Origin: Patiria pectinifera
Taxonomy: Eukaryota > Echinodermata > Asteroidea > Valvatida > Asterinidae
Length of the DNA stretch: 64,000 nt
NCBI GenBank assembly: GCA_029964075.1
Contig: CM057142.1
Coordinates: forward strand, 5,719,770 to 5,783,769
Direction of reading: 5' to 3'
Shown here: positions 5,485 to 62,228 of the stretch, one piece after another
Position numbering within the stretch: the first letter of the stretch is position 1
How the letters are laid out: the number at the start of each line of letters is the position of its first letter
Notes under the pieces: generated by a model
Seen by the model: only the letters and a program-made list of their open reading frames with translations
Told to the model about the DNA's origin: nothing
Databases searched by the model: none
Translations under genes and position numbers: made by a program

Positions 5485-5978
5485 CAGTGTTATAGTCGAG
5501 TACATTTTCAACTTTGTACTTTCGAGTACAAATACGAGTACAAATACGAGTACAAGTACTTTACCATGAGTACAAGTATGTGTATGAGTACTTTGCCATG
5601 AGTACTAGTACATTACAAGGCAATTTTTTTCCATGAGTAGGGCCTACGAGTACCAAATAATGTACTTAAGTATTAGTACGAGTAAAAATTTTACGAGTAC
5701 TTTCCACAAGTAGGAACAAATTTCAATGGGTCGCGTGTTATGAAGGTCTTTTGTATTATCAAACTAGGCATTCAACAAATGAAGCAGCCTCCAAAACAGA
5801 AGAATATTGGTTCTTTTCCATTTTTAAAAAAAATTCTTGCAGAACATTTACAAGAGTACGATTCATTTTTTTCTTGTGAGTACGAGTAGAGTACGAGTAC
5901 ATTCTCATGAGAATGAGTATGAGTACCAAAAAAGATACATAAACTTGTACGAGTACGAGAATGAATACAAAAACACTG
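5485..5978. mobile_element. hAT-type MITE with internal GAGTAC repeats, copy 1
   Basis: The ends are CAGTGTTATAG (left) and ACACTG (right). They are flanked by the 8-bp direct repeats ACTGAAAC (5477-5484) and ACTGAAAG (5979-5986), which differ at one base. Much of the interior is degenerate tandem GAGTAC/TACGAG hexamers. Eight-bp duplications and CAGTG ends are hAT hallmarks. A second copy at 51255-51801 has a perfect 8-bp duplication. Non-coding. Confidence 0.8.
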
Positions 5979-7235: not shown

Positions 7236-7244
7236 GCAATGCCA
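7236..7244. repeat. 9-bp target site duplication (left copy)
   Basis: GCAATGCCA abuts the left inverted-repeat end. The identical 9-mer lies at 49316-49324, directly after the right end. Nine bp is the typical duplication size of Mutator-superfamily insertions. Confidence 0.9.
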
Positions 7245-10200
7245 ACCGAGCTCAAGGTAACCGCGGATTCGGCCGGATTTCTAGCCGCGTGTTCAACCGC
7301 GTATTCAGCCGCGCATTCACCAAAACTCAAAAAATCTATAATACATGCTGCAAAAGGTGATCTGTTTTCCAGATAGATAATTTATTTGATTCAACGAATT
7401 TTTCAAAATAAACGACAAATATCAATATTTTTCTACGCTGTATCAGAGTTCACAATACAAGCAACCATGTCGTCAACGAGTTTGAAAATTTGATGCAATA
7501 ATTACTTATTAATTAACTGCTTAATGGGAATCATCTCATTTAACGTAATTTTCCAACGCTTTAAGAGATGTTGGAAAGTAAATGCATCATTTAAAACAAA
7601 GTGTACCCCACATGTTGTCAAAAACTCCTAAATTTATTGCAGAATCTACGAGATCATACCACTGGGCACGCTTAATTTTGGTGTTGGCTTCAGCCGAAAA
7701 CTAATTAGTGCCTAATTAGCCCCTTAAAGTGACCCAATTTTCCCTGCACTATCAGCATACATTCTTTTCGACTGCATACATCACTGCTCCTTTAAAAAAA
7801 AGTGTACCTCACATGTTGTCAAAAACTCCAAGGACTAATTAGTGCCTTATTGGCCCCTTAAAGAGACCCAATTTCCCGGAACTATCAGAATGCATCCCTT
7901 TCAACTGCGTATATCACTGCTCCTTTAAAACAAAGTGTACCTCACATGTTGTCAAAAACAAGCAGTTTTATTTCATAATCTACGAGATCATATCACTGGA
8001 CACACTTAATTTTGGTATTGGTTTCATCTAAGCACTCATTAGTGCCTAATTAGCCCCTTAAAGTGACCCAATTTAATGCATTCTTTTCAACTGCGTATAT
8101 CACTGCTCCTTTATAACAAAGTGTACCCCACATGTTGTCAAAAACTCATAATCTTATTGCATAATGTACGATATCATATGACTTGGCACACTTAATTTTG
8201 GTAGGCCTATTGGCTTCATCCAAGTAATCATTAGTGCCTAATTGGCCTCTTAAAGTGACCCAATTTCCCGGCACTATCAGAATGCATACTTTTCAACTGC
8301 GTATACCACTGCTCCTTTAAAACAAAGTGTACTTCACATGTTGCCAAAAACTTGCAGTTTTATTTCATAATCTACGAGATCATATCACTGGGCACACTTG
8401 GTTTTGGTATTGGCTTCATGCAAGCACTCATTACTGCCTAATTGGCCACTTAAAGTGACCCCATTTTTACGGCACAGAATGCATTCTTTTCAACTGCGTA
8501 TATCACTGCTCCTTTTAAACAAAGTGTACTTCACATGTTGTCAAATGCTCATAATTTTATTGCATAATCTACGAGATCATGTGACCGGGCAGACTTAATT
8601 TTAGTATTGGCTTCATCCAAGCACTCATTAGTGCCTAATTGGCCACTTAAAGTGACCCAATTTCCAGGCACTATCAGAATGCATCCCTTTCAACTGCGTA
8701 TATCACTGCTCCTTTAAAACCAAGTGTACTTCACATGTTGCCAAAAACTTGCAGTTTTATTTCATAATCTACGAGATCATATCACTGGGCACACTTGATT
8801 TTGGTATTGGCTTCATCCAAGCACTCATTAGTGCCTAATTGGCCCCTTTATAAAGTGACCCAATTTCCGGGCACAGAATGCATTCTTTTCAACTGCGTAT
8901 ACCACTGCTCCTTTAAAACAAAGTGTACTTCACATGTTATCAAAAACTCATAATTTTATTGCATAATCTACGAGATCATGTGACCGGGCACACTTAATTT
9001 TGGTATTGGCTTCATCCAAGGACTAATTAGTGCCTATTGGCCCCTTTTATGTGACCCCATTTTCCAGGCACAGAATGCATTCTTTTCAAATGCGTATAGT
9101 ATATCACTGCTCCTTTAAAACAAAGTGTACCTTACATGTTGTCAAAAACTCATCATTTTAATGCTTAATCTACGATATCATGTGACCGGGCAGACTTAAT
9201 TTTGGTATTGGCTTCATCCAAGCACTCATTAGTGCCTAATTGGCCACTTAAAGTGACCCAATTTCCCGGCACAGAATGCATTCTTTTCAACTGCGTATAT
9301 CACTGCTCCTTTAAAACAAAGTGTACCTCACATGTTGCTAAAAACGTGCAGTTTTATTTCATAATCTACGAGACCATATCACTGGGCACACTTGATTTTG
9401 GTATTGGCTTCATCCAAGCACTCATTAGTGCCTAATTGGCCCCTTAAAGTGACCCAATTTTCCCGGCACAGAATGCATTCTTTTCAACTGCGTATATCAC
9501 TGCTCCTTTAAAACAAAGTGTACCTCACATGTTGCTAAAAACGTGCAGTTTTATTTCATAATCTACGAGACCATATCACTGGGCACACTTGATTTTGGTA
9601 TTGGCTTCATCCAAGCACTCATTAGTGCCTAATTGGCCACTTAAAGTGACCCCATTTTCCAGGCACAGAATGCATTCTTTTCAACTGCGTATATCACTGC
9701 TCCTTTAAAACAAAGTGTACTTCACATGTTGTCAAATGCTCATTATTTTATTGCATAATCTACGAGATCATGTGACCGGGCAGACTTAATTTTGGTATTG
9801 GCTTCATCCAAGCACTCATTAGTGCCTAATTGGCCACTTAAAGTGACCCAATTTCCAGGCACTATCAGAATGCATCCCTTTCAACTGCGTATATCACTGC
9901 TCCTTTAAAACCAAGTGTACCTCACATGTTGTCGAAAACTCATAATTTTATTGCATAATCTACGAGATCATGTGCATGGGCACACTTAATTTTGATATTG
10001 GCTTCATCCAAGGACTAATTAGTGCCTTATTGGCCCCTTAAAGAGACCCAATTTCCCGGAACTATCAGAATGCATACTTTTCAACTGCGTATATCACTGC
10101 TCCTTTAAAACAAAGTGTACCTCACATGTTGCCAAAAACGCGCAGTTTTATTTCATAATCTACGAGATCATATCACTGGGCACACTTGATTTTGGTATTG

Positions 10201-13200
10201 GCTTCATGCAAGCACTCATTACTGCCTAATTGGCCACTTAAAGTGACCCCATTTTTACGGCACAGAATGCATTCTTTTCAACTGCGTATATCACTGCTCC
10301 TTTAAAACAAAGTGTACTTCACATGTTGTCAAATGCTCATAATTTTATTGCATAATCTACGAGATCATGTGACCGGGCAGACTTCATTTTGGTATTGGCT
10401 TCATCCAAGCACTCATTAGTGCCTAATTGGCCACTTAAAGTGACCCAATTTCCAGGCACTATCAGAATGCATCCCTTTCAACTGCGTATATCACTGCTCC
10501 TTTAAAACCAAGTGTACCTCACATGTTGTCGAAAACTCATAATTTTATTGCATAATCTACGAGATCATGTGAATGGGCACACTTAATTTTGATATTGGCT
10601 TCATCCAAGGACTAATTAGTGCCTTATTGGCCCCTTAAAGAGACCCAATTTCCCGGAACTATCAGAATGCATACTTTTCAACTGCGTATATCACTGCTCC
10701 TTTAAAACAAAGTGTACCTCACATGTTGCCAAAAATGCGCAGTTTTATTTCATAATCTACGAGATCATATCACTGGGCACACTTGGTTTTGGTATTGGCT
10801 TCATCCAAGCACTCATTACTGCCTAATTGGCCACTTAAAGTGACCCCATTTTTACGGCACAGAATGCATTCTTTTCAACTGCGTATATCACTGCTCCTTT
10901 AAAACAAAGTGTACTTCACATGTTGTCAAATGCTCATAATTTTATTGCATAATCTACGAGATCATGTGACCGGGCAGATTTAATTTTGGTATTGGCTTCA
11001 TCCAAGGACTAATTAGTGCCTAATTGGCCCCTTAAAGAGACCCAATTCCCTGGCACTATCAGAATGCATACTTTTTAACTGCGTATATCACTGCTCCTTT
11101 AAAACAAAGTGTACCTCACATGTTGCCAAAAACGCGCAGTTTTATTTCATAATCTACGAGATCATATCACTGGGCACACTTGATTTTGGTATTGGCTTCA
11201 TCCAAGCACTCATTAGTGCCTAAATGGCCACTTAAAGTGACCCCATTTTCCAGGCACAGAATGCATTCTTTTCAACTGCGAATACCACTGCTCCTTTAAA
11301 ACAAAGTGTACTTCACATGTTATCAAAAACTCATAATTTTAATGCTTAATCTACGATATCATGTGACCGGGCAGACTTAATTTTGGTATTGGCTTCATCT
11401 AAGGACTAATTAGTGCCTAATTGGCCCCTTAAAGAGACCCAATTTCCCGGCACTATCAGAATGCATACTTTTCAACTGCGTATATCACTGCTCCTTTAAA
11501 ACAAAGTGTACCTCACATGTTGCCAAAAACGCGCAGTTTTATTTCATAATCTACGAGATCATATCACTGGGCACACTTGGTTTTGGTATTGGCTTCATCC
11601 AAGGACTAATTAGTGCCTAATTGGCCCCTTAAAGAGACCCAATTTCCGGGCACTATCAGAATGCATACTTTTCAACTGCGTATATCACTGCTCCTTTAAA
11701 ACAAAGTGTACCTCACATGTTGCTAAAAACGTGCAGTTTTATTTCATAATCTACGAGATCATGTGACTGGGCACACTTAGTTTTGGTATTGGCTCGAGCC
11801 GAAAACTAATTAGTGCCTAAGTAGACCGTTAAAGTGAAGCTATTTCTAATGCACTATTGTAATGCGTTCGTTTCAACTGTGTACATCACTGCTCCTTTAA
11901 AACAAAGTGTACCTCATATGTTGTCAAAAACTCATCATTTTATTGCTTAATCTACAAGATCATGTGACCAGGCACACTTAATTCTGGTATTGGCTCGAGC
12001 CGAAAACTAATTAGTGCCTAAGTAGCCCGTTAAAGTGAAGCTATTTCTAATGCACTATTGTAATGCGTTCGTTTCAACTGTGTACATCACTGCTCCTTTA
12101 AAACAAAGTGTACCTCACATGTTGTCAAAAACTCATCATTTTATTGCTTAATCTACAAGATCATGTGACCAGGCACACTTAATTTTGGTATTGGCTCCAT
12201 CCAAGCACTAATTAGCGCCTATTGGCCCCTTTATGTGACCCCATTTTCCAGGCACAAAATGCATTCTTTTCAAATGCGCATAGTATATCACTGCTCCTTT
12301 AAAACATGTGTACCTTACATGTTGTACTTTACATGTTGTCAAAAACTCATAATTTTAATGCTTAATCTACGAGATCATGAGACTGGGCACACTCAATTTT
12401 GGTTTTGGCTCCATCCAATCATTAATTAGCGCCTAATTAGCCCCTAAAAGTGACCCCATTTTATAGGCACAGAATGTATTCTTTTCAACTGCGTATATCA
12501 CTGCTCCTTTAAAACAAAGTGTACCTCACATGTTGTCAAAGACTCATCATTTATTGCTTAATCTACGAGATCATGTGACTGGGCACACTTAATTCTGGTA
12601 TTGGCTCGAGCCGAAAACTAATTAGTGCCTAAGTAGCCCGTTAAAGTGAAGCTATTTTTAATGCACTATTGTAATGCGTTCGTTTCTGCTGCGTATATCA
12701 CTGCTCCTTTAAAACAAAGTGTACTTCACATGCTGTCAAAACCTCATAATTTTATTGCTTAATCTGCAAGATTAGGTGACGAGGCACACTTAATTTTGGT
12801 ATTGGCTTCATCCAAGCACTAATTAGTTCCTAATTGGACCCTTAAACTGATCCAATTTTCCCGACTCAATCAGAATGCATCCCTTTCAACTGCGTATTTC
12901 ACTGCTCCTTTAAAACCAAGTGTACCTCACATGTTGCCAAAAACTTGCAATTTTATTTCATAATCTACGAGATCATATCACTGGGCACACTTTATTTTGG
13001 TATTGGCTTCATCCAAGCACTCATTAGTTCCTAATTGGCCCCTTAAAGTGACCCAATTTCCCGGCATTATCAGAACGCATCCCTTTCAACTGCGTATATC
13101 ACTGCTCCTTTAAAACCAAGTGTACCTCACATGTTGCCAAAAACTTGCAGTTTTATTTCATAATCTACGAGATCATATCACTGGGCACACTTTATTTTGG

Positions 13201-13470
13201 TATTGGCTTCATCCAAGCACTCATTAGTGCCTAATTGGCCCCTTAAAGTGACCCAATTTCCCGGCACTATCAGAATGTATCCCTTTCAACTGCGTATATC
13301 ACTGCTCCTTTAAAACAAAGTGTACCTCATGCACATGTTGTCAGAAACTCATACGTTTCTTGCATAATCTACGAGATCATGTGAATGGGCACACTTAATT
13401 TTGGTATGGGCTCGAGCCAAAATCTAATTAGTGCCTAATTAGCCCGTCAAAGTGACCATACTTTATAAAA
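7245..13470 (+). repeat. Left terminal inverted arm: unique tip plus ~30-unit minisatellite
   Basis: Positions 7245 to about 7560 are unique tip sequence, matched inverted at the far end of the element. From about 7570 to 13465 a ~197-203-bp unit repeats roughly 30 times; the block CACTGCTCC recurs for example at 9301, 9498, 9695 and 9895. Two unit types alternate. One contains ATCATATCACTGGGCACAC with GCAGTTTTATTTC; the other contains ATCATGTGACCGGGCA with CATAATTTTATTGC. This gives a dimeric ~395-bp register in many places. Near the inner end (11.8-12.7 kb) a diverged subtype carries GGCTCGAGCCGAAAACTAAT. The same subtype occurs in the other arm. No genuine coding sequence is present. Confidence 0.9.
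7257..7312 (+). repeat. Terminal ~12-bp subrepeats, possible transposase-binding sites
   Basis: At the extreme end a degenerate ~12-bp motif of form (A/G)CCGCGNNTTCA repeats four to five times: variants CCGCGTGTTCA, CCGCGTATTCA and CCGCGCATTCA, plus two diverged ones. The inverted counterpart lies at about 49248-49303. Repeated motifs at a transposon tip are the usual place for transposase binding. A role here, perhaps through the C2H2 fingers, is inference. Confidence 0.5.
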
Positions 13471-14803: not shown

Positions 14804-17800
14804 TTACTTGCTTAGGTGAGTTAGCACTAATCTTTGTAGTTCTGGATCAATAATGCGTGAACGTTTAATCATTTGCAGAGTGACATACATCCTTAGTTTA
14901 TCAGCATCATCGGATCTTTTTATTCTTTTCTTTGCGAGGCATAGTTCTTCTGCAAACAGACAACAAAATACGCCACAGCTCGATGAATCTGCTTGTTGCA
15001 CACATGATACTTGCTTAACTACTACACCTTGCTGACCATCTAAAACACTGGGAACTTGACTCCAATGTCTGTTAATCCTACCAGTTCTGAAAAAATCGAA
15101 GAATGATTGGCCGTTATTAGCCATTTTTTGCCGTGTGTCCTTGCTGCAACTAAGCGAGTCATAACACGTGAGCTCATTCTTATTGTTGTCAATGACATAG
15201 AGTGTAAAGTGCCGATTTTCCAGAAGTGGAAAAAGCATGACATCGCAGAAACTTCCATTGTGACAACATGATTTGGATACTGACTTAAATGTAGTTGGTG
15301 TTGGTTGCCTGTTAGTTATTTTTGCGGTTTGCGAGCACATCAATACCCCACATGTAAGTTGTTTGCTATCTTCGTTCGCTATTCCACACAACTGACTCAG
15401 ATAAAAATCAACTACAGAATCACTTAACCAACCAGCATGGTAGTCCGGAAAGATACTTTTCAAACGCTTCAAAACTGGTGGTCTCGGACTGCACTCGATC
15501 ATGGCCAGGTTGTCAAACGACATATAATCGCTTGTCTTTTCATCACACAAAGCAACGGTACACAAGTTTCTTTCATTGCATGATGCCCACAAAATGCGAA
15601 CAAAATTCTTCTCATTTTCAGTTATATCGAAGCCTGCACCATCTTTGCTGTCACACTTGCTGCCTATTGGGATTTCGTTTTCGGTTGTAGTCGAGTCATT
15701 TTTTCTATAGAAATACAAATATCCAGTATTTGAAACTCGAGTGTCAAACTCCTGATCACTGGTTTGCTTGACATTTCCGTCATTGAATTGTGTTATGGTT
15801 GAGTCTTGGTAATTCCTGACGAACGTTTTATAATGCCCACTCTCCAGCGAACCACCTTCGTGAACAACAACTGACTGCAGCGTGTACAATGCAGGAGTGT
15901 GGTTAACACAGAATCTGGATAAATCTATCACCGTGCTAGGACTGACGTCTGCTGTGATCTTTTCACGTCGTTCTCCTACAACGCGGAATCTTAGAAGTTG
16001 AACAACGAGTAAAGAAGGACAGTTGACAATTTTGGAAACGACCATTTTTTTGCATTGTTTGAGACCACACAAATCACAGTTAAGATCACTCACAATCTCG
16101 TCTTCAAAGAATTCACGTAAGCATTTGTCTATGCTCTGTTTTTGTAGGGGAATGGGAAGTATACCTGACGTAGAATTTTCAACAATGTTGTGTTCTTCAC
16201 AGGTAAGACACATTACACTTTTTGAAATTTCTATCTCGTTAGTTAAGCATGACTCTCCCAAGAATGGCACCATGAGTTGCGAATAAAATTCGGCAGCATC
16301 TTGTTGGTGGTTGCAACTTATATTCATTTGCGTTGCACATTCCTTTATCAAGGGCTGAACGACACGGAAAGGGATCGATGCCCTTGTGCCCAATGATAAC
16401 GTTTCAAAAAATTCAATCAACTTTCGCCAAAGAAAAACATCACTTCCCTGATATTTGGAGACGCTGAGTTTAGCTGCTGCAATGAAAGGCTTGAGAGCTT
16501 GTATAGTTGCAATCCACCAACAAGATACACTGTTGTTAACTATGCCTCTTTGCGGAATGGAAGTTGATTGGCTGTCACCATTGATTACTTTTTCCTTTCG
16601 TGGATTCTCTGCTCTTCTCTGTGATTTTGGGACTGTTTCAGGAGGTGGATGAGGAACGTGTGTGTATCTTTTACCATCTGAATCAGAGGTGTTAATTACT
16701 GGTTTTCTGGTTCGCTTATGTTTGGGTTTATCTTTGAAGTGAAGACCATTTGTTGGTGGAGTCAGATAAACCCCTTTTCTGGTTGGTGTGCTAGTTCGGT
16801 TTCTTTTGCACCATGTCTCGGTTACCAGTTTCGCAGATTTGCCTCTTGGTCTCTTTTTGCTTTTGCAGAATGCTTCGCAAAATTCTCTCTGCAGGGGAAG
16901 CATGTCGCGTTCATACATCAGAACGAAATCATTGATTTTCCTACATCTGTTATAATTCAACTTGCTTCTTTTAACCTCCTGCATACTTTTCTCGATGATC
17001 CCTTGCGTGCGATTATCCGAGGTAATGTTCTGAAATTTCGATTTACCGATGGCGTTGTACATTCTTGTATAATTTCCATATGCCTGGGACGTTCCATGTC
17101 GGCCTAAGTCGTGAATCAAAAGCGCGGACCAGTTAGGTATGTTTGGCAAAGAGAATGTTATTAAATGATTAAGGAATTCTCTGCCAAAATATGCATTTTT
17201 TGACAATTTTGAAGCATCTGAGATGTTTGCTTCATATCGATCCACTTTTTGAATGGCAGCATCAATTATCCTCTTAAAATGCAATCTAAAAGGAGACCCG
17301 GGCGATTTGGCGATGTATTCATCCTGAGAAATGTTTAAGTTATCTGATTCGCTGTCTGTATCAAACGATGCACTTCGGTCTACCTCATGACCATTATCGT
17401 CGTCATCTTCCTGTTCAAAGAAATCCCTTTCAAACATCTTGTCCTCAGTGCGTTCAATTTTTGATGTGAGCTTTTCATAGTGAGTCTTGACTAGGCTGGT
17501 GGAAAGTTTCGAACATGTAACGATTGTCAAACACTGTACAATTTCATCGATGTCGGCCATTTCTTTTGATTGTAAAAGTAAACCCATCCAGTACATAGCG
17601 TCTCTAAAATTGTCGGGATAGTACTTACGACAGATCTTTGCCGCATTTCTCATGAAATGGCTCGCGCAGCAATGTATTACAGTCTTTTTCAAATCGTTGT
17701 CTTCTGCCAAGCCTGTAACAATTCTGTAGCAGCGATTTAAATATTCTACGACGGTTTCACAATTGAAAGCTTTTAAGCTGGCAAGCAAAAGAGTAGCACT

Positions 17801-20074
17801 CCCGTCAATCATGACAAGAAGTGGTGGTTTTACACCACTGTGGCCGTAGATGCTTTTCTCATCGAGCAAAAAACACTCCAAGAAATAGTTGATGACTACG
17901 GCATTGTGCTGCATGGAAAGTAGAGAGGCAACTACAAATGGAGGCGAATCTTTAATCGGATGACGAATTACTACGTCGTACAGTTGGTATTGTTTTGAAT
18001 CTGTCGAATTGTTTCTGATGACTGAGCCTGTCGCGTCGAAGTATATTATATCTCTTGATGCTATATTGTGGTATACTCTAATGCTGTCTTCAGAATATAA
18101 CATTACAAAAGTAGGCCGAACACCTAGGCCTACGTGTCTTAAAATCCCAGGGATTTGCTTATTCGCATCGGATTGCCTATTCATGATATTAATAAGACCT
18201 TGAAATTCATTTTGATCAGAATCTGTAATTTTTTTGGCTTCACTGGATATTGTGTGAAGAACTCCCTTGTTCGGGGCTTCGTCGCGACAACCCGACCTGA
18301 AAATGTCATCATCTAACGATTTAAGGTTATCTAAATGCTCTCGCCTGGTCTTTTTGTACTTCAAAATGTTCTTGAGATGTTCACGCTGAGTATTCCTCAC
18401 AAATCGCGCTCGCCGTTCATTTGTTTTATGTTTGACTTTCCCTGTGAACAGTACCCGTACCTTCAAATCACTCTCAGTTTTCATTGATAGGTTAAATTTT
18501 ACAGTGCAATCAGTGAAGCTACAATATCCATTTGCGTGGAAAGCATCCTTAGACTTTTTCCTACCAAATTTAAAGGGAACGTAGTGTCGTCGAAATTGAA
18601 AGGAGCAGTATGGATGTATTGCCTTTAATCCTTTTATAAATGGGTGTATCCACGACTTTGGGAACGAATTCTTATTTTGATGTTTTTTTAGTTTCCTCCA
18701 CTCCGACCTGTCCACATGAAAGTAACATTTATTCATGTCTGGTAGTTTAATCGTCCAGAAAGGACCATGTTCGTTATTGTTAGGGACATTTTCCGTGCAC
18801 ATATTCATCATAACGTCCTCCGGTATGATGTCATCTATTTCGTCGTCCAAACTGCCACAAAAGTGTGTATCTTCAGACGCCCCAGTGTGAGTTACTTCTT
18901 CATTCAATATTTCGGAAAAGATTGATGATTTTTCTTTGTCATGTTTGTCGGATACTGCACTGAAACACCTAAGAGAGGCATTTGAAATACCCGACACATC
19001 TTGCATGCTGCAATCATCCTCTTTGTTAGTTTTGACGCTTTTATCGGAATATGGATACGGTGAAGATCTTATTGAAATTGAAGGTGGGCATTGCTGTGTT
19101 TGATTGAAGGTTGGTGACAAATCAGGGTTATTGTTCAAGGAATCTATACCATCAAGACTTGAAGAAATATCATTTGCAAAGAAATCAGTACATGATTCTA
19201 TCCATTGTGATACCTTGGGTTTACTGCTTATTTGGTGCACAGGGAAATTAATATCGTCATTATTTGAATGAAAAGAACCATCAACACTTATGTTACTAGT
19301 AAACAATCTTTCTCCCCCATTACAGCCATTTAGACCGCATTTAAATGTAACTTTGTCCATGTAAGACTTGCGTCTATTTTGTGGTTTTAGATCAATGCAA
19401 TTGTAATGGTACCACATGTCGCAGTAATCACATGCAATCATGCTTTGTGGAGAGTTGTAGGGCTGTTTGCAGATACAATACAATTGTTCGGAATTTTCAT
19501 TAGGGGAATTAATATCACCTCTAGAACGATTAAACAACAGCTCAGGATTACCATCATTTCGAATTTCTGGATCTTTTGAATCTTTAGACTTGGTTTCATT
19601 ATTTCCGTCATTTGAAGTTTCTGGACAAGTTTGTGTATCGGGTGCATGGTTTGATTTAGACATTAAATCCGACATACAGGAACCAACTGGTGGTTCTGAA
19701 CACTTTGTGGGAGATTCTACAGCGTTTTCAACCGATGGTGCAGACTTCCATTTTTTTCTAGATTTTGTGGGTCGCATTTTCGGTCCTTTACTAATGTTAC
19801 CAATTTTCTCAAACATTTCGCGAACTTTGTCTCGTAGGCCCAGACGATTTCTTCTCCACATGATTTGAATGATTTTGGAGCAATTAGGCGTTCTCAAAGA
19901 ATGTATTGCTTTACCCAATTTTACCACAGTATTAACTGTGACATCAAGACTTTCATTTTCTTTTGGATACTCATGCATATCTTCCGCCAATACTCTTGCA
20001 ATCCTTGCCACCTTTGTCTGTCCTCGTTGCCTCTTCCTCCCTCCACCAATGTCGTCATCTGGGATTGTCGAGTC
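14804..20074 (-). CDS. Main exon of the element gene: PHD - Mutator DDE transposase - USP - Ulp1 protease
   Basis: One uninterrupted 5,271-bp exon encodes 1,756 aa plus stop. It begins at acceptor GTCTTGCAG|GAC (phase 0). The open frame runs on into the intron to an ATG at 20131, but those 19 extra codons read through the acceptor and are probably not coding. Domains by exon residue: PHD finger at about 200-251 (CIC, CDYC, WYHYNC, final C-x4-C). DDE core with D680 (YFDATG), D757 (VMIDGSA), C803-x2-H806 (CASH, the Mutator C2H motif) and E1028 (TQGIIEKSMQE). USP domain with nucleophile C1185 (VSCWW), a QQDAAEF box near 1258, two CxxC zinc knuckles, H1414 (SGHYKTF) and D1432 (FNDGNV). Ulp1/SENP domain with H1622 (HFTLYVID), D1639 (CYDSL) and C1700 (SSSCGVF). 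All catalytic positions look intact. The role is transposition of the surrounding element. The proteases would remove ubiquitin and SUMO-like modifiers from partners or from itself (inference). Confidence 0.9.
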   Translation of the reverse strand, partial: DSTIPDDDIGGGRKRQRGQTKVARIARVLAEDMHEYPKENESLDVTVNTVVKLGKAIHSLRTPNCSKIIQIMWRRNRLGLRDKVREMFEKIGNISKGPKMRPTKSRKKWKSAPSVENAVESPTKCSEPPVGSCMSDLMSKSNHAPDTQTCPETSNDGNNETKSKDSKDPEIRNDGNPELLFNRSRGDINSPNENSEQLYCICKQPYNSPQSMIACDYCDMWYHYNCIDLKPQNRRKSYMDKVTFKCGLNGCNGGERLFTSNISVDGSFHSNNDDINFPVHQISSKPKVSQWIESCTDFFANDISSSLDGIDSLNNNPDLSPTFNQTQQCPPSISIRSSPYPYSDKSVKTNKEDDCSMQDVSGISNASLRCFSAVSDKHDKEKSSIFSEILNEEVTHTGASEDTHFCGSLDDEIDDIIPEDVMMNMCTENVPNNNEHGPFWTIKLPDMNKCYFHVDRSEWRKLKKHQNKNSFPKSWIHPFIKGLKAIHPYCSFQFRRHYVPFKFGRKKSKDAFHANGYCSFTDCTVKFNLSMKTESDLKVRVLFTGKVKHKTNERRARFVRNTQREHLKNILKYKKTRREHLDNLKSLDDDIFRSGCRDEAPNKGVLHTISSEAKKITDSDQNEFQGLINIMNRQSDANKQIPGILRHVGLGVRPTFVMLYSEDSIRVYHNIASRDIIYFDATGSVIRNNSTDSKQYQLYDVVIRHPIKDSPPFVVASLLSMQHNAVVINYFLECFLLDEKSIYGHSGVKPPLLVMIDGSATLLLASLKAFNCETVVEYLNRCYRIVTGLAEDNDLKKTVIHCCASHFMRNAAKICRKYYPDNFRDAMYWMGLLLQSKEMADIDEIVQCLTIVTCSKLSTSLVKTHYEKLTSKIERTEDKMFERDFFEQEDDDDNGHEVDRSASFDTDSESDNLNISQDEYIAKSPGSPFRLHFKRIIDAAIQKVDRYEANISDASKLSKNAYFGREFLNHLITFSLPNIPNWSALLIHDLGRHGTSQAYGNYTRMYNAIGKSKFQNITSDNRTQGIIEKSMQEVKRSKLNYNRCRKINDFVLMYERDMLPLQREFCEAFCKSKKRPRGKSAKLVTETWCKRNRTSTPTRKGVYLTPPTNGLHFKDKPKHKRTRKPVINTSDSDGKRYTHVPHPPPETVPKSQRRAENPRKEKVINGDSQSTSIPQRGIVNNSVSCWWIATIQALKPFIAAAKLSVSKYQGSDVFLWRKLIEFFETLSLGTRASIPFRVVQPLIKECATQMNISCNHQQDAAEFYSQLMVPFLGESCLTNEIEISKSVMCLTCEEHNIVENSTSGILPIPLQKQSIDKCLREFFEDEIVSDLNCDLCGLKQCKKMVVSKIVNCPSLLVVQLLRFRVVGERREKITADVSPSTVIDLSRFCVNHTPALYTLQSVVVHEGGSLESGHYKTFVRNYQDSTITQFNDGNVKQTSDQEFDTRVSNTGYLYFYRKNDSTTTENEIPIGSKCDSKDGAGFDITENEKNFVRILWASCNERNLCTVALCDEKTSDYMSFDNLAMIECSPRPPVLKRLKSIFPDYHAGWLSDSVVDFYLSQLCGIANEDSKQLTCGVLMCSQTAKITNRQPTPTTFKSVSKSCCHNGSFCDVMLFPLLENRHFTLYVIDNNKNELTCYDSLSCSKDTRQKMANNGQSFFDFFRTGRINRHWSQVPSVLDGQQGVVVKQVSCVQQADSSSCGVFCCLFAEELCLAKKRIKRSDDADKLRMYVTLQMIKRSRIIDPELQRLVLTHLSK

Positions 20075-20789: not shown

Positions 20790-21150
20790 TTGGAATTAAG
20801 AGAGTATAAACAGATCTATACAAAAAGGTTGCCAAAACAGTCCTGTGTATGTCCACAAACATAAGTCTAGTTTTATGTATATCTTTTTCCATTGCTTTCT
20901 TTCAGTAATTAAATTACATGTATTCATAAAAACAACATTACCACAATTGAAACATCGCTACACGACTAAATAAATGCATTTCGAAACCTGACCCAAAAAT
21001 GCATCAATTGAGTGCGCACCGGGTTGGGGGGGGGGGGCATAACATGCTATAACGAAGCCATATTCGGCAATTTCTTAATACTTTGTGTCTGCCTGACGCC
21101 ATTCCATAATTGAAAACTGAAGTCAAAACAATGAGCTTGTCATAACCTAC

Positions 21151-21327
21151 CGTTTTCACACTATGGTTTGCAATGAAGTGATCCAGGAATTGGTCTTCGT
21201 GTGGGTAAACCTGTCCACACAGGAAGCACTCGACCTCATCATCAGGCTGGGTGTATCCGTTGTCCTTGAGCGTTGTCAAATATGTCTTTGGAAGAACATT
21301 TTTTGGAGGCACGTCTTGGCTTGAGAT
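21151..21327 (-). CDS. Duplicated C2H2 zinc-finger exon, copy A
   Basis: A 59-codon exon with acceptor AAATACAG|ATC and donor AAAACG|GTAGGT, phase 0 at both ends. It encodes a single finger of form C-x2-C-x12-H-x4-H (starting CFLCGQ, ending IANH) preceded by PPKNVLPKTYLTTLKDNG. There is no ATG, so it must be internal. It joins in frame to the main exon at 20074. This copy has GYTQ where the others have GDTQ. Confidence 0.7.
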
Positions 21328-21735
21328 CTGTATTTATTTAAGATGCAAGATACGATGTTCTTGTGATATTCGTGTACCTATACTTTTTGGAAGTTATAGG
21401 TTTAAATGACCGACGCTCCATGCAGTTAAACAAGGAGGCCGGGCGGAAGCTTCAATTGTAGTTTGAGGTCTGTGGGTCAGCAATTAAAAAGGCCACTCAA
21501 AAAGTTATATGAGGTACCTCGGGTTATTAAACCTTGCGAGATTTAATTCAGACGTTTGCTTCAAATCGCACAGTTAACATAGCTTTCAAGCAACCAAAGA
21601 TTTCTAGATTTATAGGCAATGTACAACATTTGCTTTTGCTGCAATATACAGAAATAAATGATGACGTGATTACGTTATAATTCAAAGCCCATGAAAACGT
21701 AATCACATTTTTTTTTATATTCGTCCATTTATTAT

Positions 21736-21964
21736 TCTCTCAATTCCAAAAAGTGAACATTCACTCCATTTGAGTGAAGATTCACTCCCACAGTCGGAAA
21801 CTACAGGGACTAGACGTTTTAGAATTCCTTCAATCGTTAAGATCGAATTTTCACTCGAGCTTCGTCTGAAGTGGTTTTTTTCAGGCTATTTCAATCAAAC
21901 ATGAGAGTGATTTTCAATCTAAAACGTCTAGTCCCTAATTTCACTCTTTGGAATTAAGAGAGTA
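21736..21964. mobile_element. Nested palindromic MITE, copy in repeat unit A/B
   Basis: The inverted ends are CTCTCAATTCCAAA and TTTGGAATTAAGAGAG. Internal arms also pair: GGGACTAGACGTTTTAGA against its complement near 21921-21936. It recurs at 22932-23159 and 24123-24350 because it was amplified with the 1.2-kb unit. Non-coding. Confidence 0.65.
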
Positions 21965-22346
21965 TAAACAGATCTATATACATCCTTCTGGATGGAACTA
22001 CTTGAAACTTTACTTGTCACATGTCACAAAATGGTTGCCGAAACAGCCCTGTGTTTGTCCACAAACATAAGTCTAGTTTTATGTATATCTTTTTCCATTG
22101 CTTTCTTTCAGAAATTAAATTACATGTATTCATAAAAACAACATTACCACAATTAGTACACGACTAAATAAATGCATTTCGGAACCTGACCCAAAAATGC
22201 ATCGAGTGCGCACCGGGTTGGGGGGGGGGGGGGCATAACATGTTATAACGTAGCCATATTGGGCAATTTCTTAATAGTTTGTGTCTGCCTGACGCCATCC
22301 CACAATTGAAAACTGAAGTCAAAACAATGAGCTTGTCATAACCTAC

Positions 22347-22523
22347 CGTTTTCACACTATGGTTTGCAACGAAGTGATCCTGGAATTGGTCTTCGTGTGG
22401 GTAAACCTGTCCACACAGGAAGCACTCGACCTCATCATCAGGCTGGGTGTCTCCGTTGTCCTTGAGCGTTGTCAAATATGTCTTTGGAAGAACATTTTTT
22501 GGAGGCACGTCTTGACTTGTGAT
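22347..22523 (-). CDS. Duplicated C2H2 zinc-finger exon, copy B
   Basis: A phase 0-0 exon of 59 codons with the same splice-site words as the other copies. The finger pattern is C-x2-C-x12-H-x4-H. Differences are FQDHFVANH at the finger end and GDTQ upstream. It is open throughout and can be spliced in series with, or instead of, the other copies without changing frame. Confidence 0.7.
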
Positions 22524-22931
22524 CTGTATTTATTTAAGATGCAAGATACGATGTTCTTGTGATATTCGTGTACCTATACTTTTTGGAAGTTAAAGGTTTA
22601 AATGACCGACGCTTCATGCAGTTAAACAAGGTGGCCGGGCGGAAGCTTCAATTGTAGTTTGAGGTCTGTGGGTCAGCAATTAAAAAGGCCACTCAAAAAG
22701 TTATATGAGGTACCTCGGGTTATTAAACCTTGCGAGATTTAATTCAGACGTTTGCTTCAAATCGCACAGTTAACATAGCTTTCAAGCAACCAAAGATTTC
22801 TAGATTTATAGGCAATGTACAACATTTGCTTTTGCTGCAATATACAGAAATAAATGATGACGTGATTACGTTATAATTCAAAGCCCATGAAAATGTAATC
22901 ACATGTTTTTTATATTCGTCCATTTATTATT

Positions 22932-23159
22932 CTCTCAATTCCAAAAAGTGAACATTCACTCCATTTGAGTGAAGATTCACTCCCACAGTCGGAAACTACA
23001 GGGACTAGACGTTTTAGAATTCCTTCAATCGTAAAGATCGAATTTTCACTCGAGCTTCGTCTGAAGTGTTTTTTTTTTCAGGCTATTTCAATCAAACATG
23101 AGAGTGATTTTCAATCTAAAACGTCTAGTCCCTAATTTCACTCTTTGGAATTAAGAGAG
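22932..23159. mobile_element. Nested palindromic MITE, second copy
   Basis: Same ends and internal inverted arms as the copy at 21736-21964, lying at the same place in the next 1.2-kb unit. Confidence 0.65.
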
Positions 23160-23535
23160 TATACACAGATCTATATACATCCTTCTGGATGGAACTACTT
23201 GAAACTTTACTTGTCACATGTCACAAAAAGGTTGCCGAAACAGCCCTGTGTTTGTCCACAAACATAAGTCTAGTTTTATGTATATCTTTTTCCATTGCTT
23301 TCTTTCAGTAATTAATTACATGTATTCATAAAAACAACATTACCACAATTAGTACACGACTAAATAAATGCATTTCGGAACCTGACCCAAAAATGCATCG
23401 AGTGCGCACCGGGTTGGGGGGGCATAACATGCTATAACGTAGCCATATTGGGCAATTTCTTAATAGTTTGTGTCTGCCTGACGCCATCCCACAATTGAAA
23501 ACTGAAGTCAAAACAATGAGCTTGTCATAACCTAC

Positions 23536-23712
23536 CGTTTTCACACTATGGTTTGCAACGAAGTGATCCAGGAATTGGTCTTCGTGTGGGTAAACCTGTC
23601 CACACAGGAAGCACTCGACCTCATCATCAGGCTGGGTGTCTCCGTTGTCCTTGAGCGTTGTCAAATATGTCTTTGGAAGAACATTTTTTGGAGGCACGTC
23701 TTGACTTGTGAT
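23536..23712 (-). CDS. Duplicated C2H2 zinc-finger exon, copy C
   Basis: A phase 0-0 exon of 59 codons, nearly identical to copy B but with FLDHFVANH at the finger end. All zinc ligands are present and the frame is open. Donor and acceptor words are conserved. Confidence 0.7.
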
Positions 23713-24122
23713 CTGTATTTATTTAAGATGCAAGATACGATGTTCTTGTGATATTCGTGTACCTATACTTTTTGGAAGTTAAAGGTTTAAATGACCGACG
23801 CTTCATGCAGTTAAACAAGGAGGCCGGGCGGAAGCTTCAATTGTAGTTTGAGGTCTGTGGGTCAGCAATTAAAAAGGCCACTCAAAAAGTTATATGAGGT
23901 ACCTCGGGTTATTAAACCTTGCGAGATTTAATTCAGACGTTTGCTTCAAATCGCACAGTTAACATAGCTTTCAAGCAACCAAAGATTTTCTAGATTTATA
24001 GGGAATGTACAACATTTGCTTTTGCTGCAATATACAGAAATAAATGATGACGTGATTACGTTATAATTCAAAGCCCATGAAAACGTAATCACATTTTTTT
24101 TTATATTCGTCCATTTATTATT

Positions 24123-24350
24123 CTCTCAATTCCAAAAAGTAAACATTCACTCCATTTGAGTGAAGATTCACTCCCACAGTCGGAAACTACAGGGACTAGA
24201 CGTTTTAGAATTCCTTCAATCGTAAAGATCGAATTTTCACTCGAGCTTCGTCTGAAGTGTTTTTTTTTTCAGGCTATTTCAATCAAACATGAGAGTGATT
24301 TTCAATCTAAAACGTCTAGTCCCTAATTTCACTCTTTGGAATTAAGAGAG
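24123..24350. mobile_element. Nested palindromic MITE, third copy
   Basis: Same ends and inverted arms as the copies at 21736-21964 and 22932-23159, at the same place in its 1.2-kb unit. Confidence 0.65.
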
Positions 24351-24745
24351 TATAAACAGATCTATATACATCCTTCTGGATGGAACTACTTGAAACTTTA
24401 CTTGTCACATGTCACAAAAAGGTTGCCGAAACAGCCCTGTGTTTGTCCACAAACATAAGTCTAGTTTTATGTATATCTTTTTCCATTGCTTTCTTTCAGT
24501 AATTAAATTACATGTATTCATAAAAACAACATTACCACAATTAAAACATCGCTACACGACTAAATAAATGCATTTCGAAACCTGACCCAAAAATGCATCA
24601 ATTGAGTGCGCACCGGGTTGGGGGGGGGGGGGCATAACATGCTATAACGAAGCCATATTCGGCAATTTCTTAATACTTTGTGTCTGCCTGACGCCATCCC
24701 ATAATTGAAAACTGAAGTCAAAACAATGAGCTTGTCATAACCTAC

Positions 24746-24922
24746 CGTTTTCACACTATGGTTTGCAATGAAGTGATCCAGGAATTGGTCTTCGTGTGGG
24801 TAAACCTGTCCACACAGGAAGCACTCGACCTCATCATCAGGCTGGGTGTCTCCGTTGTCCTTGAGCGTTGTCAAATATGTCTTTGGAAGAACTTTTTTTG
24901 GAGGCACGTCTTGGCTTGAGAT
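24746..24922 (-). CDS. Duplicated C2H2 zinc-finger exon, copy D (5'-most)
   Basis: A phase 0-0 exon of 59 codons, the first reached by transcription from the ATG exon at 28431. It reads PPKKVLPK where the others have PPKNVLPK, and FLDHFIANH at the finger end as in copy A. The frame is open and the zinc ligands are intact. Confidence 0.7.
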
Positions 24923-25121
24923 CTGTATTTATTTAAGATGCAAGATACGATGTTCTTGTGATATTCGTGTACCTATACTTTTTGGAAGTTATAGTTTTAA
25001 ATGACCGACGCTCCATGCAGTTCAACAAGGAGGCCAGGATGAAGCTTTAATTATAGTTTGAGGTCTGTGGGTCAGCAATTAAAAAGGCCACTCAAAAAGT
25101 TATATGTGGTACCTCGGGTTA

Positions 25122-28100
25122 TATTGACAATTTTGAATCATGTTTGGTTTTTGTCGCCCAGAATGTCAACTTTGCTACCCACATGGATGTACCCCTCATT
25201 AAAATTCCCATAGACACCAGTGGTAAATACTAACTCTGACAGGTATAAAAGTTGCACAGAAAATGATGATAACAATTTCATCTTTCATTTTCTTTTCATT
25301 TTTGGTGGGTTGACCATTGCATTTCCCAAAAATTTTCACCCAATTAAGAAGATGATCTCTATTTTTCACAAAACGGAGAAGTAGCCATCCTAAGAAAAGT
25401 TCCCTCCACAACATGGCAAAATAGCGCCACTTTCGAGCCTACTTGCATCAAAAATGCTCAATATTAGAAGCCCCAAGTCCTGGCCACAGGTTCAGTGCTC
25501 TAACTCTTCAATTTTTCCAATTTTATGGCTCTCAGAACTCTTTAAAAAAGAACGTTTTGAGGGTATACATTTTATTAACGAGTGCGTCGGAGGGATTTGG
25601 CCTATGGTGTGCACTCACATTAATTCCAGTACATTCTTATCACTGCACCCGACCCCCCCCCCCCAAAATAATTTGATATTATCAGAAACGTAAACAATGT
25701 CACTGTATGGGCGGCCAAATTAAAGGACCACAATTAAGTGTAAAGGAAAAACAACAATAAAAACGAACGATAGACAAATAAACAAGGACTAAGCAGGCAG
25801 CAATCAAACCCCAAACGCTGACAAATGACGATGTTTGTTTTTGTTGGTATCGTTTAAAATTCAATTATTTTTGGCCCTTTAATTATTGTGGCCCCCAAAT
25901 GCAGAAACCTGATGTTGCTGAACATTTCAATTTACCACACCACACATGAAGCCAGCTTAGAGTAGCTGTACTGCAACAGATGGGATTCTAATCAAGGTTA
26001 GGGGGGAAACTGCAGAACAAACGATTATTTATTGACTAGACTGTATTCAACAACCATTATTCAACTAGGCCTTAATGGGGATCTCGTGGCTATTTGTCAC
26101 ACTGCATGCACCATTGGTGATTGATTGATCACCGCCCTCTGGTTTTACTGTGCACCTGTAAAAGTCCCGTTTGTGAACCTTGTATGATGATACATGTACA
26201 CCTCTTCAATGCATCTGATAAGTTGCTCTGTCTACGAAAAATTGTGGGTGAGGTCTCCCATCAGTTTCGGAAATTTATACTACCAGATTAAAGAAGAAGT
26301 CCAGTGCTATTATCAATGATGAATTTCATCCGGCGAATGAGTTGCTTGATATGTTGAGATCAGGGAAGCGTTACAGAGTAATCAGATGCAACTTAACAGA
26401 AAGATTCAGGAGCAGTGTAATGCAATCAGGGAACTGAATAGAATTAAGTAATCTTACAGTGCAATCTCTTAATCTTTTATGACTTTTGACGTTTAAAGAG
26501 TTATTTTAAAACTAAATTAATCATGTGGTAGGTTAATATTTTAAATATAAAGTTCAAAATGTATTTAAATGCATTTTTTTCCTTAGGGGGTCAGGCGACT
26601 GAATGGAATTAAGTAACCTAACTGCGTAATAATTATTTGGTCTTGTTAATGACTTTTGTTTGTTTTTTGAGAGAGATATTTTAAGGGGGGAATTAGTTTA
26701 ATTATGTGGTAGTTTAATGTTTGTAATATAAAGTTTCCATGTAATGTATTTTAATGTTTTGAGCACGAAAACCATTACACTTTCTATTGTATACAATAAT
26801 TGTATATAAATAGCAATAAACCAAATCAATCAATCAATCAATCAAACATTATGCACAATTTCATTAGTTAGTCATTTTAAAGTGGTATATATTACGTTTC
26901 CTTGCGATTTTTTTAGGGCTGCGAAAAGTTGGAGGACAAAAAAACTCAGCTGACCATGTGAGTTTATCTTGCGCCAGGCAGAGAACTTTTCGGTTGTTTT
27001 ATGACTTCAGTGGGTAGCATGGAGGTACATTGTAGTTTGTATGAGCATAAAGTTGGTCCAGGATACCTGAATTGCCTGGAGCGTTTACATTACGATTTTG
27101 GTGAAAATTTTAATTCTATGAGCATAGACTACAAGGTAGCAGTGGTGCAGGTCGGGTGGGTGTATCAGTTCCAAAATATTGTGTCAGAGTTCCAAGATCG
27201 TGTTATACAGTACATAATATAATGAGCCACCGCCGCTTGTACCTAGCCTTCGCATTTCTTTAAATTTGATTGATGATTTTAATTAGACCATTTATTCATG
27301 CTATTCCGAAATCATTACTGGACCAAGCCCAGTCTAATGTGGCTTTCTTAGCTGTAGGTAGCTTTCCAGCACTTAACTGGCTCGTCACTCGTCACTCAAA
27401 TTCTGATGGGAGGCAGGCTGGCTCTGGACAACAGACGCTCGGTTCCTCCCTAAAAAAACCCTACGGTAGGTTTTTTTTTTGGGAGGAACCAAGCGTATAC
27501 TGAACGCAATCTGCAATATCTCACTTTCCCTAGGAATGCTGCCGAGAGGTGGGTGACGTGTCGTGCAGATTCGGAATTGGCATGTGTTTCAAAGTCCTGA
27601 AGGTTATCAAAACGATAAATAAACCGTGCGTGACTATAACCACCAACCGATATGTACGTTTTCGACGCTTGACAGAGGAAAACCATCTGAATCATACTTG
27701 GAGTTGATCGAATCAATTGAATTTAAGTCATCTTAACGTCATTTTGCATACAAAATTAAATTACATATACCGTTTGACTGTGCATTTTCTTAAAAAGTAA
27801 ACAAAAAAATTATAATACCCCACGTTTAGAAATATTTGGCTAATTATCATGGAGATATCTATTATAGATTAAAAATTGTACACATTGAAAATGTTCCGCG
27901 CGGCGCGCGATGATTGATATTAACGTGCGTTGACACCAATAATTCAGGCCGATCTGGCAACTGGGCCAAGTATCGGTTATTACTAATATTTAATAATCAA
28001 GGGCCTTTTAAAGCATATTGAATCATTTCACCACTAAAGTCTTTACTTTGTGTGCACTAGTCATTGAGGTTTTATATTATTTAAAATTCCTGCAAATTGT

Positions 28101-30640: not shown

Positions 30641-31727
30641 GTGATTTTTTTGCACTATTTCATGACTTCAAAAAATAAAATAATGGCTAGAAGAAAAATG
30701 GTTTTTGAATGGATAAAGAGAAAAAGCAGGAATCTTGCAGTTGAACTGGAAAGAATAGGTGTGTCACGTCTTCGTCTTGAGTTGAGATTCTTGCTTTGGG
30801 AACTGGTTGAAGCATGCACTGGAGCATGCTTGGAGCATGGTTGGAGCTGGTCATGTGATGTGAATGTCATCGGGAGTCCTGTGTAGAGGAGTTAGAAAGA
30901 AAAGAATAACGACTAAGGTGAAGAAAACTTGTAAAAAAATACATCGGCTAACAATAGCTACAAATAAATTAGACAGGTGTTGCAATACCCCATTTATGCG
31001 GAATGCACTACTGAAGTACTAACCAAACATGCCAAACAACGAAACATGTCTTATAATGTTGTATTTTTGTGACCCCCCCCCCGCATATGATTTTATCTCA
31101 GCAGAACAGCAGAGACACTGAACAGTCATCAATGTATTAGTTTCCTCTTCATCATGCTTGGGTTCATGTCTGTTGTCGAGTCATTTGATTTTCTGCCAGA
31201 GTGTATTCTTTAAGATCCACTATTCTAACTGTGTTGGTTTCAGATTTTAGTCTTTGCCTGTATTTTTTGGTTTTTGGCCTGAGGTTTGAACTTGATCACG
31301 TCTTTAATTTGGATTTGAGGGTTTCTTTATTAAGTTGGTTATTGGTCTTTGATTTGCAGTAAATTAATTTTGTTTTGCCTATGAGTATGAAAGTCATTTC
31401 TTTAAAGGAAGTTTTTAGTATGATTTGCCGTGTTCTAAGATTACCGCAAAGATTTAGTTTGCATCATTTGTATGGAATGAATGTACATTTCATGGCCTAT
31501 ATACAAATGCAGCAGTTTTTTCTAGCTAAGCCTAGTATAGGCAATATAACTTTATAACAAACTAAAGCAAAATCCAAAAATAAACTACAAACAAAGCCCA
31601 ATTGTGAAATCAAAAGTTGACAAAGTTCTACAAACATGTTCGGGAACATGTTCGGGTACATGTTCCAAGTGAGGCCTGTATTTACAGAGGTCATGCAGTA
31701 AATTGGCCACATTAAGCCTAGCTAAGT
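30641..31727. other. Interior of the giant element, unassigned
   Basis: AT-rich with only small open frames. Positions about 31655-31710 resemble a stretch in cornichon intron 1 (the words GGCC..GTATTTAC.GAGG), pointing to a shared dispersed repeat. No gene recognised. Confidence 0.35.
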
Positions 31728-31967
31728 AAACCCACGGCCAAACTCTCGATGTCCGAGGCCTCCCCCCGTACAACCCTCCCCGTACAACCCTCCCCGTACT
31801 ACCACCAGACTACGCCATCACTGGACACTCACAAACTCACACTTTTTAAACCCACGGCCAAACTCTCGATGTCCGAGGCCTCCCCCCGTACAACCCTCCC
31901 CGTACAACCCTCCCCGTACTACCACCAGACTACGCCATCACTGGACACTCACAAACTCACACTTTTC
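31728..31967 (+). repeat. Two-copy tandem duplication, 120-bp unit
   Basis: The block beginning CCCACGGCCAAACTCTCG at 31731 recurs at 31851, essentially unchanged. Inside each unit the 15-bp word CCCGTACAACCCTCC is itself repeated. The frame is open but this is repeat-driven, not evidence of a gene. Confidence 0.85.
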
Positions 31968-35950: not shown

Positions 35951-37059
35951 GCAGCATTATGTGTTTGCTGAATTGGTGGAGAATGGGTTGTTTCCAGATA
36001 AGCAGAAAGGATGCAAGAAACTGTCAAGGGGATGAAGGATCAACTGGTCATCGATATGGCCTGGCCTTTCCACTGGACTGAATTTGCCCTGCACTGAAAA
36101 ATTGCCTGGGTTAATTATTTTACCCAAGCAAGGTTGAAAACTGCAACTACCCATCAGTTAAGCGGAACAATCAGTTCAGCGGACTGGCCTGTTTTGGCCT
36201 GTCAAGTGGACTGAACTTGCCATGTCTGCTGGATTAGACTGATACTGCCCTCTGAACTGGCCTGGCATGGCCTGTCCGCTGTCCTCCACCTTTGCACTTG
36301 ACTTGCCTCCGGACTGGACATCCAGGCACCACCCACAGTCCAGTCCATTGGACTGGACATTTTCTATCGACTGTATTTTATACGAGGATTGGATACAGAA
36401 GCCACCAATCTCTTATTGTAAATCCCGATGCTTTGCGTGCAGCCTGAGGAGTTCATCAATGACCCACGTATTATTTAAACAATGAATCAAAAGATGAGCA
36501 CCTCGGGCTTCCGATCCACCGCTCATCTGTTCTTGTTCAACATGCTGCATGCATGATGTTTTCAATTCGATCAGCACATTAATGGGATTATAGGTGCACC
36601 TGTCTGGTAGAAGCAGCACAGTAATTTATGCGGGGTTCAAAATTCTGTGACAATAATTGTTTTTTTTTAAATCCAGAACTCGGGCTGGAACCATTATTTT
36701 TATGAAACTACCTTTAAATAGCAACTTGGAGTACTATGCTCCGCATCTCTAGAATGTCAGTCCGTTGGCCAATAGTGTGGGCGAGCGGCCGAATCCAAAT
36801 TTTGGTCGACTTAATTGCCCCACCCTACACACACCTACGTATCATTATGAAGCTTAATTTGTCTACTTTTGGATAAGGCATGATGTGCATCTGCCAAAGT
36901 GGGAGGAATGTGTGTTTTTTGGCCAATTTTGGTATAGAAGTCTCATTTTGGGTCAAAATTTGATTTTTAAAATTGTTTTTTTTTTATATCTTTTTTATAT
37001 CTATGGGATCAGCCTCATCCACGCAGCCAAATGCGAATGGAACCAATTATGATATCGCA
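35951..37059. other. Interior between small repeats and right arm
   Basis: About 36050-36360 is a degenerate low-complexity stretch rich in GGACTGGCCTG-like words. The orphan frame at 36413-36619 follows. Nothing else can be named. Confidence 0.4.
36413..36619 (-). other. Unrecognised 68-codon open frame, possible exon
   Basis: A minus-strand frame containing ELKTSCMQHVEQEQ and LLIHCLNNTWVIDELLRLHA. It looks more protein-like than the other short frames, with amphipathic helical patterning. There is no ATG at its start, and an in-frame stop lies just upstream. It could be an exon of a second element gene, a captured host exon, or chance. Confidence 0.2.
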
Positions 37060-49315: not shown

Positions 49316-49324
49316 GCAATGCCA
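49316..49324. repeat. 9-bp target site duplication (right copy)
   Basis: GCAATGCCA, identical to 7236-7244, directly after the right inverted end. Confidence 0.9.
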
Positions 49325-56099: not shown

Positions 56100-56465
56100 G
56101 CAAAATGGAGGATTTTGCAGGATTGAGGCTATATGGCAAAAATGTGTGACTGATTTTGGAGGATGCACTGTGTCAAGGTCTTAGGCCGGACCTTGTGTTG
56201 TTTATGCTCAGCCGTGCATAAATTTAGGGCTAAATTATACTTGAAATCCTCCGCACTGCTCCAGGATGTCACTGGCTCTGCCTCAACATATTGACAGTGA
56301 TTACTAGAGGATTTTGCAGGATTGAGGCAGTGGTCACCTCTCCATGGACCACATTCAAGAAATAACTGAGGATTTTGCAGGATTGAGGCTGTATGCAATT
56401 TTTACACGGAGGCAATTGGAGGATTTAGCAGGATTCAGGTTGCATCCTAGCAAAAATGCCTGGGG
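56100..56465 (+). repeat. Interspersed ~400-bp repeat, inverted partner of 51860-52230
   Basis: Several copies of GAGGATTTTGCAGGATTGAG occur within the unit (56108, 56307 and 56370 region). The order of shared blocks is the reverse complement of the intron-1 copy. Confidence 0.75.
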
Positions 56466-62224: not shown

Positions 62225-62228
62225 TTAA

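Follow-up and report, generated by a model that had tools for sequence, protein, structure and literature searches.

In the 64,000-nucleotide stretch of Patiria pectinifera DNA that was analysed (the window, to which all positions refer) we find what is probably a giant foldback-type DNA transposon of 42,071 bp together with its own transposase. The latter is a fusion protein, encoded on the minus strand, in which a PHD finger, a DDE-like region, a ubiquitin-specific protease (USP, C19) and an Ulp1/SENP-type protease (C48) are joined. We hold this reading, including the mechanism proposed below for the protein, with moderate confidence; it is drawn from the boundaries of the element, its near-identical ends, the flanking 9-bp duplication, the enclosed gene, the exons that lie in phase 0, and the domains with their active sites. 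It suggests that a cut-and-paste transposon can unite the removal of ubiquitin and SUMO, a histone reader and a cutting domain in one molecule, and that a satellite-bearing foldback element can reach 42 kb with its ends staying nearly identical. The size and the near-identity of the ends both bear on how transposon ends yield satellite DNA.

Self-comparison of the window places the element at 7245-49315, enclosing the main coding exon (14807-20074, minus strand) and four zinc-finger exons. It is flanked by the target-site duplication GCAATGCCA, found at 7236-7244 and as a perfect 9-bp copy at 49316-49324 (both read on the plus strand). The boundaries are set by this duplication and lie 5 bp outside the BLAST ends at 7250 and 49310. 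Satellite arrays can become inverted relative to each other without any transposition, and it might therefore be argued that the two ends are ordinary repeat arrays and that the enclosed gene is unrelated to them. This appears very improbable, given that 998 of the outermost 1000 positions match between both ends (the only mismatches being at positions 4 and 5) and that the perfect duplication is located exactly at both boundaries. In a chance control with 20,000 random pairs of 20-bp sequences, drawn outside the satellite arrays, a 9-mer was shared anywhere in 29 pairs and at a fixed place in 0. From the near-identical ends and the duplication we infer that the element has moved recently or that its ends were homogenised.

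The left inverted terminal repeat (7245-13457, plus strand) consists of a ~340-bp outer domain followed by ~30 tandem satellite units, and the right one (37046-49315, minus strand) has such an outer domain too and ~60 units in the opposite orientation; the units make up most of either arm. The unit measures ~200 bp, and can also be read as 397 bp. Three unit motifs were counted with up to 2 substitutions allowed, giving 30, 28 and 22 forward and 0 reverse copies in the left-arm array (7827-13457) against 61, 60 and 49 reverse and 0 forward copies in the right arm; the tested motifs are thus unidirectional within each arm. Within the right arm, moreover, 3.2-3.3 kb are duplicated (42947-46198 and 45854-49076, 96.4% identical in the self-comparison). 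Such an architecture, in which tandem repeats build up long inverted ends next to a flanking domain, is that of a foldback-type element, the type to which FB/NOF elements belong.

The minus-strand open frame extends from 20134 to 14804 without interruption (1,776 aa; residue numbers given here are those of this protein, P0001). The main coding exon within it comprises 1,756 codons, ends at a stop codon at 14804-14806 and most likely starts at 20074, directly after ...TTGTCTTGCAG. Under a simple base-composition model the chance of 1,756 stop-free codons is ~10^-52. Codon-position bias was determined in 11 full segments of 450 nt, which cover aa 21-1670 and leave the last 106 codons outside: it is above the control mean in 9 segments, and in 6 it attains levels reached by less than 1% of 157 non-coding segments. 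The segments aa 471-620 and aa 1521-1670 are without such bias, the latter overlapping the Ulp1 domain. An NCBIfam search returned nothing.

Upstream of the main exon we observe a tandem array of ~1.2-kb units (20820-25122, minus strand). Shifted copies are 95.8-97.7% identical in the self-comparison; values involving the fourth unit from the main exon (0.79-0.82) were left unused, since they include flank outside the array that depresses them. The units contain four exons of 177 bp (59 codons) on the minus strand, located, in order of increasing distance from the main exon, at 21151-21327, 22347-22523, 23536-23712 and 24746-24922, all in phase 0 and with AG/GT flanks. By eye they encode C2H2 fingers of the form C-x2-C-x12-H-x4-H; the one copy scanned, the nearest to the main exon, matches Pfam zf-C2H2 at 0.12, which is below the cut-off. 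Since the main exon is in phase 0 as well, any number of finger exons could in principle be spliced onto it. Among the four exons (six pairs), 17 of the 21 pairwise differences are amino-acid replacements, and purifying selection is thus not apparent in the copies. A start-codon exon for the predicted protein was not found. As a separate observation, three of the units contain segments (21610-21655, 22806-22851 and 23996-24041) that are 83-85% similar, in inverted orientation, to 62684-62729 in the right flank, which is part of a dispersed repeat described below.

The PHD finger (aa 220-256; 19367-19477, minus strand) is recognised by PF00628 at 8.8e-6, above the gathering score. A phmmer comparison of this part with PDB yields DIDO1 (6e-9), BPTF (1e-8), PHF8 (2e-8) and SPP1 (8e-8), with ING2 also among the matches, all of which we take to be H3K4me3 readers. 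Residues Y219, Y226, M232 and W241 align with Y, Y, Y and W of BPTF, presumably at its H3K4me3 cage positions.

Both protease regions are assigned by Pfam above the gathering scores. The USP domain (aa 1197-1476; 15707-16546, minus strand) matches UCH (PF00443) at 1e-24 in the whole protein and at 1.2e-26 as a fragment, spanning profile positions 2-254 of 254, Cys box included. Against PDB it finds USP8 (6e-12, in an alignment that begins after the Cys box) and USP15 (2e-11). The residues C1205, H1434 and N1451/D1452 are present, as are two CxxC pairs (1309-1312 and 1353-1356). The Ulp1 domain (aa 1569-1755; 14870-15430, minus strand) matches Peptidase_C48 (PF02902) at 1.9e-9 in the whole protein and at 3.1e-11 as a fragment, and SENP1 in PDB at 2.6e-6; it holds H1642, D1659, Q1714 and C1720, with the six-residue spacing between Gln and Cys seen in the aligned SENP1. 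The first-pass annotation, made from the letters alone, had described a deubiquitinase with its C, H and D boxes and a SUMO-type protease with its H, D and C, and the profiles and residues agree with it on both. That PHD, C19 and C48 share a single frame is likewise borne out, with the catalytic residues in place. A single-sequence AlphaFold model of the two proteases (pLDDT 35) was not used.

The Cys box of the USP domain is unusual: it reads GIVNNSVSCWW, the usual form being GLxNLGNTCYMNS. Together with the segment aa 1521-1670, in which codon-position bias is missing, this might indicate that the protease regions have decayed or are carried along without a function. Such decay seems unlikely to us, as the exon continues over all its codons without a stop and each protease has retained its catalytic residues.

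For the DDE-like region (16991-18037, minus strand) the evidence is a motif. The order D700, D777, C823-x2-H826 and E1048 provides moderate evidence for a putative MULE-like DDE core, of which we take D-D-CxxH-E to be the characteristic order. This pattern was written after the sequence had been seen, and it fits 14 of 20,000 shuffled versions of the region. There are 76 residues between D700 and D777 and 270 between D777 and E1048, and by eye the latter interval includes an acidic low-complexity stretch. Most arthropod MULE families have 60-76 residues in the first interval and 120-214 in the second, according to the accessible part of PMC13359780; the first spacing observed here falls within that range, whereas the second exceeds it. 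Over the region Pfam gives no family above the cut-off (the best being a sub-threshold Erf4 at 0.31), and PDB gives nothing up to E 10. No MULE or Transposase_mut match in Pfam is obtained with the whole protein at E up to 1 or with fragments at E up to 10 (HMMER filters on). KDZ/Zisupton transposases have an Ulp1 link, so membership of that group was tested too: neither the whole protein nor the fragments match KDZ in Pfam, a library that we take to include a KDZ model. A single-sequence AlphaFold model of the region was unusable (pLDDT 36). The DDE core with C-x2-H that had been annotated at first pass hence stands as a motif order, but without a match in Pfam or PDB. The first-pass interpretation as a whole is partly supported: the PHD, C19 and C48 domains are confirmed, and the name transposase follows mainly from the enclosing 42-kb element with its inverted ends and 9-bp duplication, which that annotation had not noticed; the DDE-like region contributes no profile match to the name.

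The missing profile could also be explained if the frame were a chromatin gene of the host, captured or domesticated and present as Pack-type cargo in a foldback element that is moved by another transposase. Fragments of host genes tend to be picked up by MULEs (accessible part of PMC6446971), and most of the 23.6-kb interior of the element is without a recognised gene. Nonetheless, we see no rival transposase in the interior: the other long frames overlap the region of a 14-bp minisatellite, and a Pfam scan of the minus strand (25.0-31.7 kb in three frames, 34.2-37.0 kb in one) gave no family above the cut-off, the best being DUF5760 at 0.018. Moreover, the D-D-CxxH-E order fits a DDE core, an uninterrupted single exon is unlike the intron-rich cornichon gene next to the element, and a PHD finger is a trait of Rehavkus transposases (PMC6446971, accessible part). 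We consider the cargo explanation unlikely.

The minisatellite just mentioned, GC-rich CGCGAGGCGAGATC, occupies 32196-34020. The GC-rich frames at 31.7-34.1 kb were considered as genes and rejected, being mostly readings of this repeat; it creates the long frames on both strands at 32196-34020, which are therefore spurious. The rejection takes the frame at 31726 as a whole, its first ~150 codons included. The minisatellite itself forms an inverted repeat (32196-32748 against 33467-34020, 94%), possibly a nested small foldback, and at 31727-31966 there is a perfect 120-bp tandem duplication with two identical copies.

Anatomically the element resembles Rehavkus and Foldback, relatives of Mutator; this likeness is one of anatomy. 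As far as the accessible parts of the sources go, Rehavkus elements duplicate 9 bp at the target site, encode a PHD finger and bear a minisatellite ahead of their 3' end (PMC6446971), and Rehavkus-1_TC from Tribolium, of 9.5 kb, carries the 164-bp satellite TCsat23 in its inverted termini (PMC10218199). Shared with the present element are thus the 9-bp duplication, the PHD finger in the transposase, the coding in one frame and a satellite or minisatellite at the ends. The known example, however, measures 9.5 kb against 42 kb here, where the arms alone reach 6.2 and 12.3 kb. The terminal inverted repeats (TIRs) tabled for Rehavkus in the accessible part of PMC6446971 are 26-400 bp long, a range that fits the ~340-bp outer domain but not the whole repeat of 6-12 kb. 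The words 'Ulp1', 'peptidase' and 'ubiquitin' are absent from the main text of that paper.

A tandem-repeat domain within long inverted ends is likewise a feature of the foldback elements Tetris of Drosophila virilis, with duplications of 8-10 bp (PMC4079207), and Tm1 of Meloidogyne, with 9-bp duplications (PMC3169594), both as described in the portions of these papers at hand. Tetris differs in having no coding capacity and TIRs of up to 1,735 bp (PMC4079207, same portion), Tm1 in its repeats of ~14 bp and in the absence of 'PHD' from the main text of PMC3169594. Arthropod MULEs likewise combine a DDE region with a zinc finger and terminal inverted repeats; in the accessible part of PMC13359780 the longest element is 9,972 bp, the longest TIR 1,193 bp and the largest frame 1,136 aa.

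The union of a transposase with a SUMO- or ubiquitin-type cysteine protease has precedents. The accessible part of PMC2836005 places Ulp1 in Mutator elements from hydra, lancelet and plants, and Ulp1 together with a PHD finger in Ginger1-9_HM. Ginger1 differs from the present case: its elements carry either OTU or Ulp1 and duplicate 4 bp, and C19 is not listed for them in that part of the paper. The same source cites the Trichomonas protein XP_001314237.1, which combines transposase_11 with Peptidase C19; it shares the deubiquitinase-transposase union, but belongs to another transposase family and is cited there without mention of Ulp1. C48 is furthermore present in some Cryptons (PMC3212892, accessible part), and no fusion of C19 and C48 is described in the part of the giant-transposon review PMC6431247 that was available. 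The first-pass remark that no described transposase was known to carry both C19 and C48 still stands: none is found among the literature matches listed, a scope outside which Repbase Reports and most subscription journals fall. To a foldback/Rehavkus-like anatomy the present protein adds USP and Ulp1 jointly, in an element of far larger size.

Sequence searches for relatives were run against collections of viral and prokaryotic contigs. Against genome contigs, the Ulp1 region gave 67 matches and the DDE core 37, with 0 confirmed in both cases. Against viral contigs, 4 pattern matches to the DDE-like region were obtained (0 confirmed), the whole fusion protein gave no pattern match and the end sequence 0 matches. 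Since the collections are made up of viruses and prokaryotes, and only close relatives come within reach of a query with one protein, the absence of relatives says little.

The mechanism that we propose assigns a role to each part of the protein. The C2H2 exons and the Cys/His-containing stretch before the DDE region would bind the repeated ends, with the ~90 satellite units serving as extra binding sites, and the MULE-like DDE core would cut and paste with a 9-bp stagger. The PHD finger, which is BPTF/DIDO/ING-like, would read H3K4me3 and might steer insertion to active promoters, as at the cornichon gene. USP and Ulp1 could strip ubiquitin and SUMO from chromatin or repair proteins, or from the transposase; removal of these tags would keep the transposase stable and unsilenced during break repair. 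Escape from silencing or control of the protein's own turnover, both suggested in the first-pass annotation, are a reasonable guess at the function. Both the silencing of transposons and the repair of breaks depend centrally on SUMO. Given this role, the question why transposons acquire Ulp1/OTU-type proteases becomes directly testable by point mutants in one gene.

A more modest reading keeps the transposon and its transposase and lets the proteases act only on the protein itself, through cleavage or tag removal that affects its stability, and leaves them without a part in chromatin or silencing. The transposase-like region has both proteases in cis, and the link of Ulp1/OTU proteases to repair after transposition was proposed by the Ginger1 authors as a possibility only (PMC2836005, accessible part). 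The PHD finger, being of the H3K4me3-reader type, suggests chromatin work instead, and two protease specificities would seem to be beyond the needs of self-protection. Overall we regard purely self-directed proteases as possible, though doubtful. Equally tentative is an extension of the mechanism in the other direction, to an all-in-one chromatin-invasion enzyme. Here recognition of the ends by multiple fingers and H3K4me3-guided insertion at active promoters would be combined with the erasure of SUMO and ubiquitin at the donor or target, blocking silencing and steering repair; the ~90 satellites would form an amplified landing pad, with fingers and satellites expanding together.

The mechanism as we favour it includes insertion at promoters, and the element does lie in the 5' region of a host gene, cornichon (CNIH; 49494-55066, plus strand), whose start codon at 49494 is 169 bp after the right target-site duplication. 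Pfam and inspection by eye place exons of this intron-rich gene at 49494 and at about 52370, 52855, 54000 and 55040; exon 1 was identified by eye and ends before GT. The gene marks the host as a eukaryote, and its richness in introns makes an invertebrate animal probable. The Pfam Cornichon family matches the downstream exons at 1.6e-19 in one frame and at 3.8e-6, below the cut-off, in another. MULEs tend toward insertion in or near genes (PMC6446971, accessible part). Promoter targeting here is deduced from a single insertion, and one case cannot show a preference.

For the flanks, Pfam was run on the right side over three plus-strand frames of 50.0-56.0 kb and a single frame of 56.0-64.0 kb, with Cornichon recovered in two frames, and on the left side over the plus strand in three frames, where 0 families were found; Rfam and tRNA scans of the whole window yielded nothing. 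Several minor repeats are seen around the element. A 366-bp inverted pair (51871-52236 and 56085-56450, 84%), possibly a separate transposon pair, has its left arm inside the cornichon gene and its right arm ~1 kb past the last recognised exon. Related short tandem repeats of the GAGTAC type flank the element on both sides (5523-5619 and 51282-51743), and a ~540-bp dispersed direct repeat is present in both flanks (1524-2063 and 62220-62729, 74% identical).
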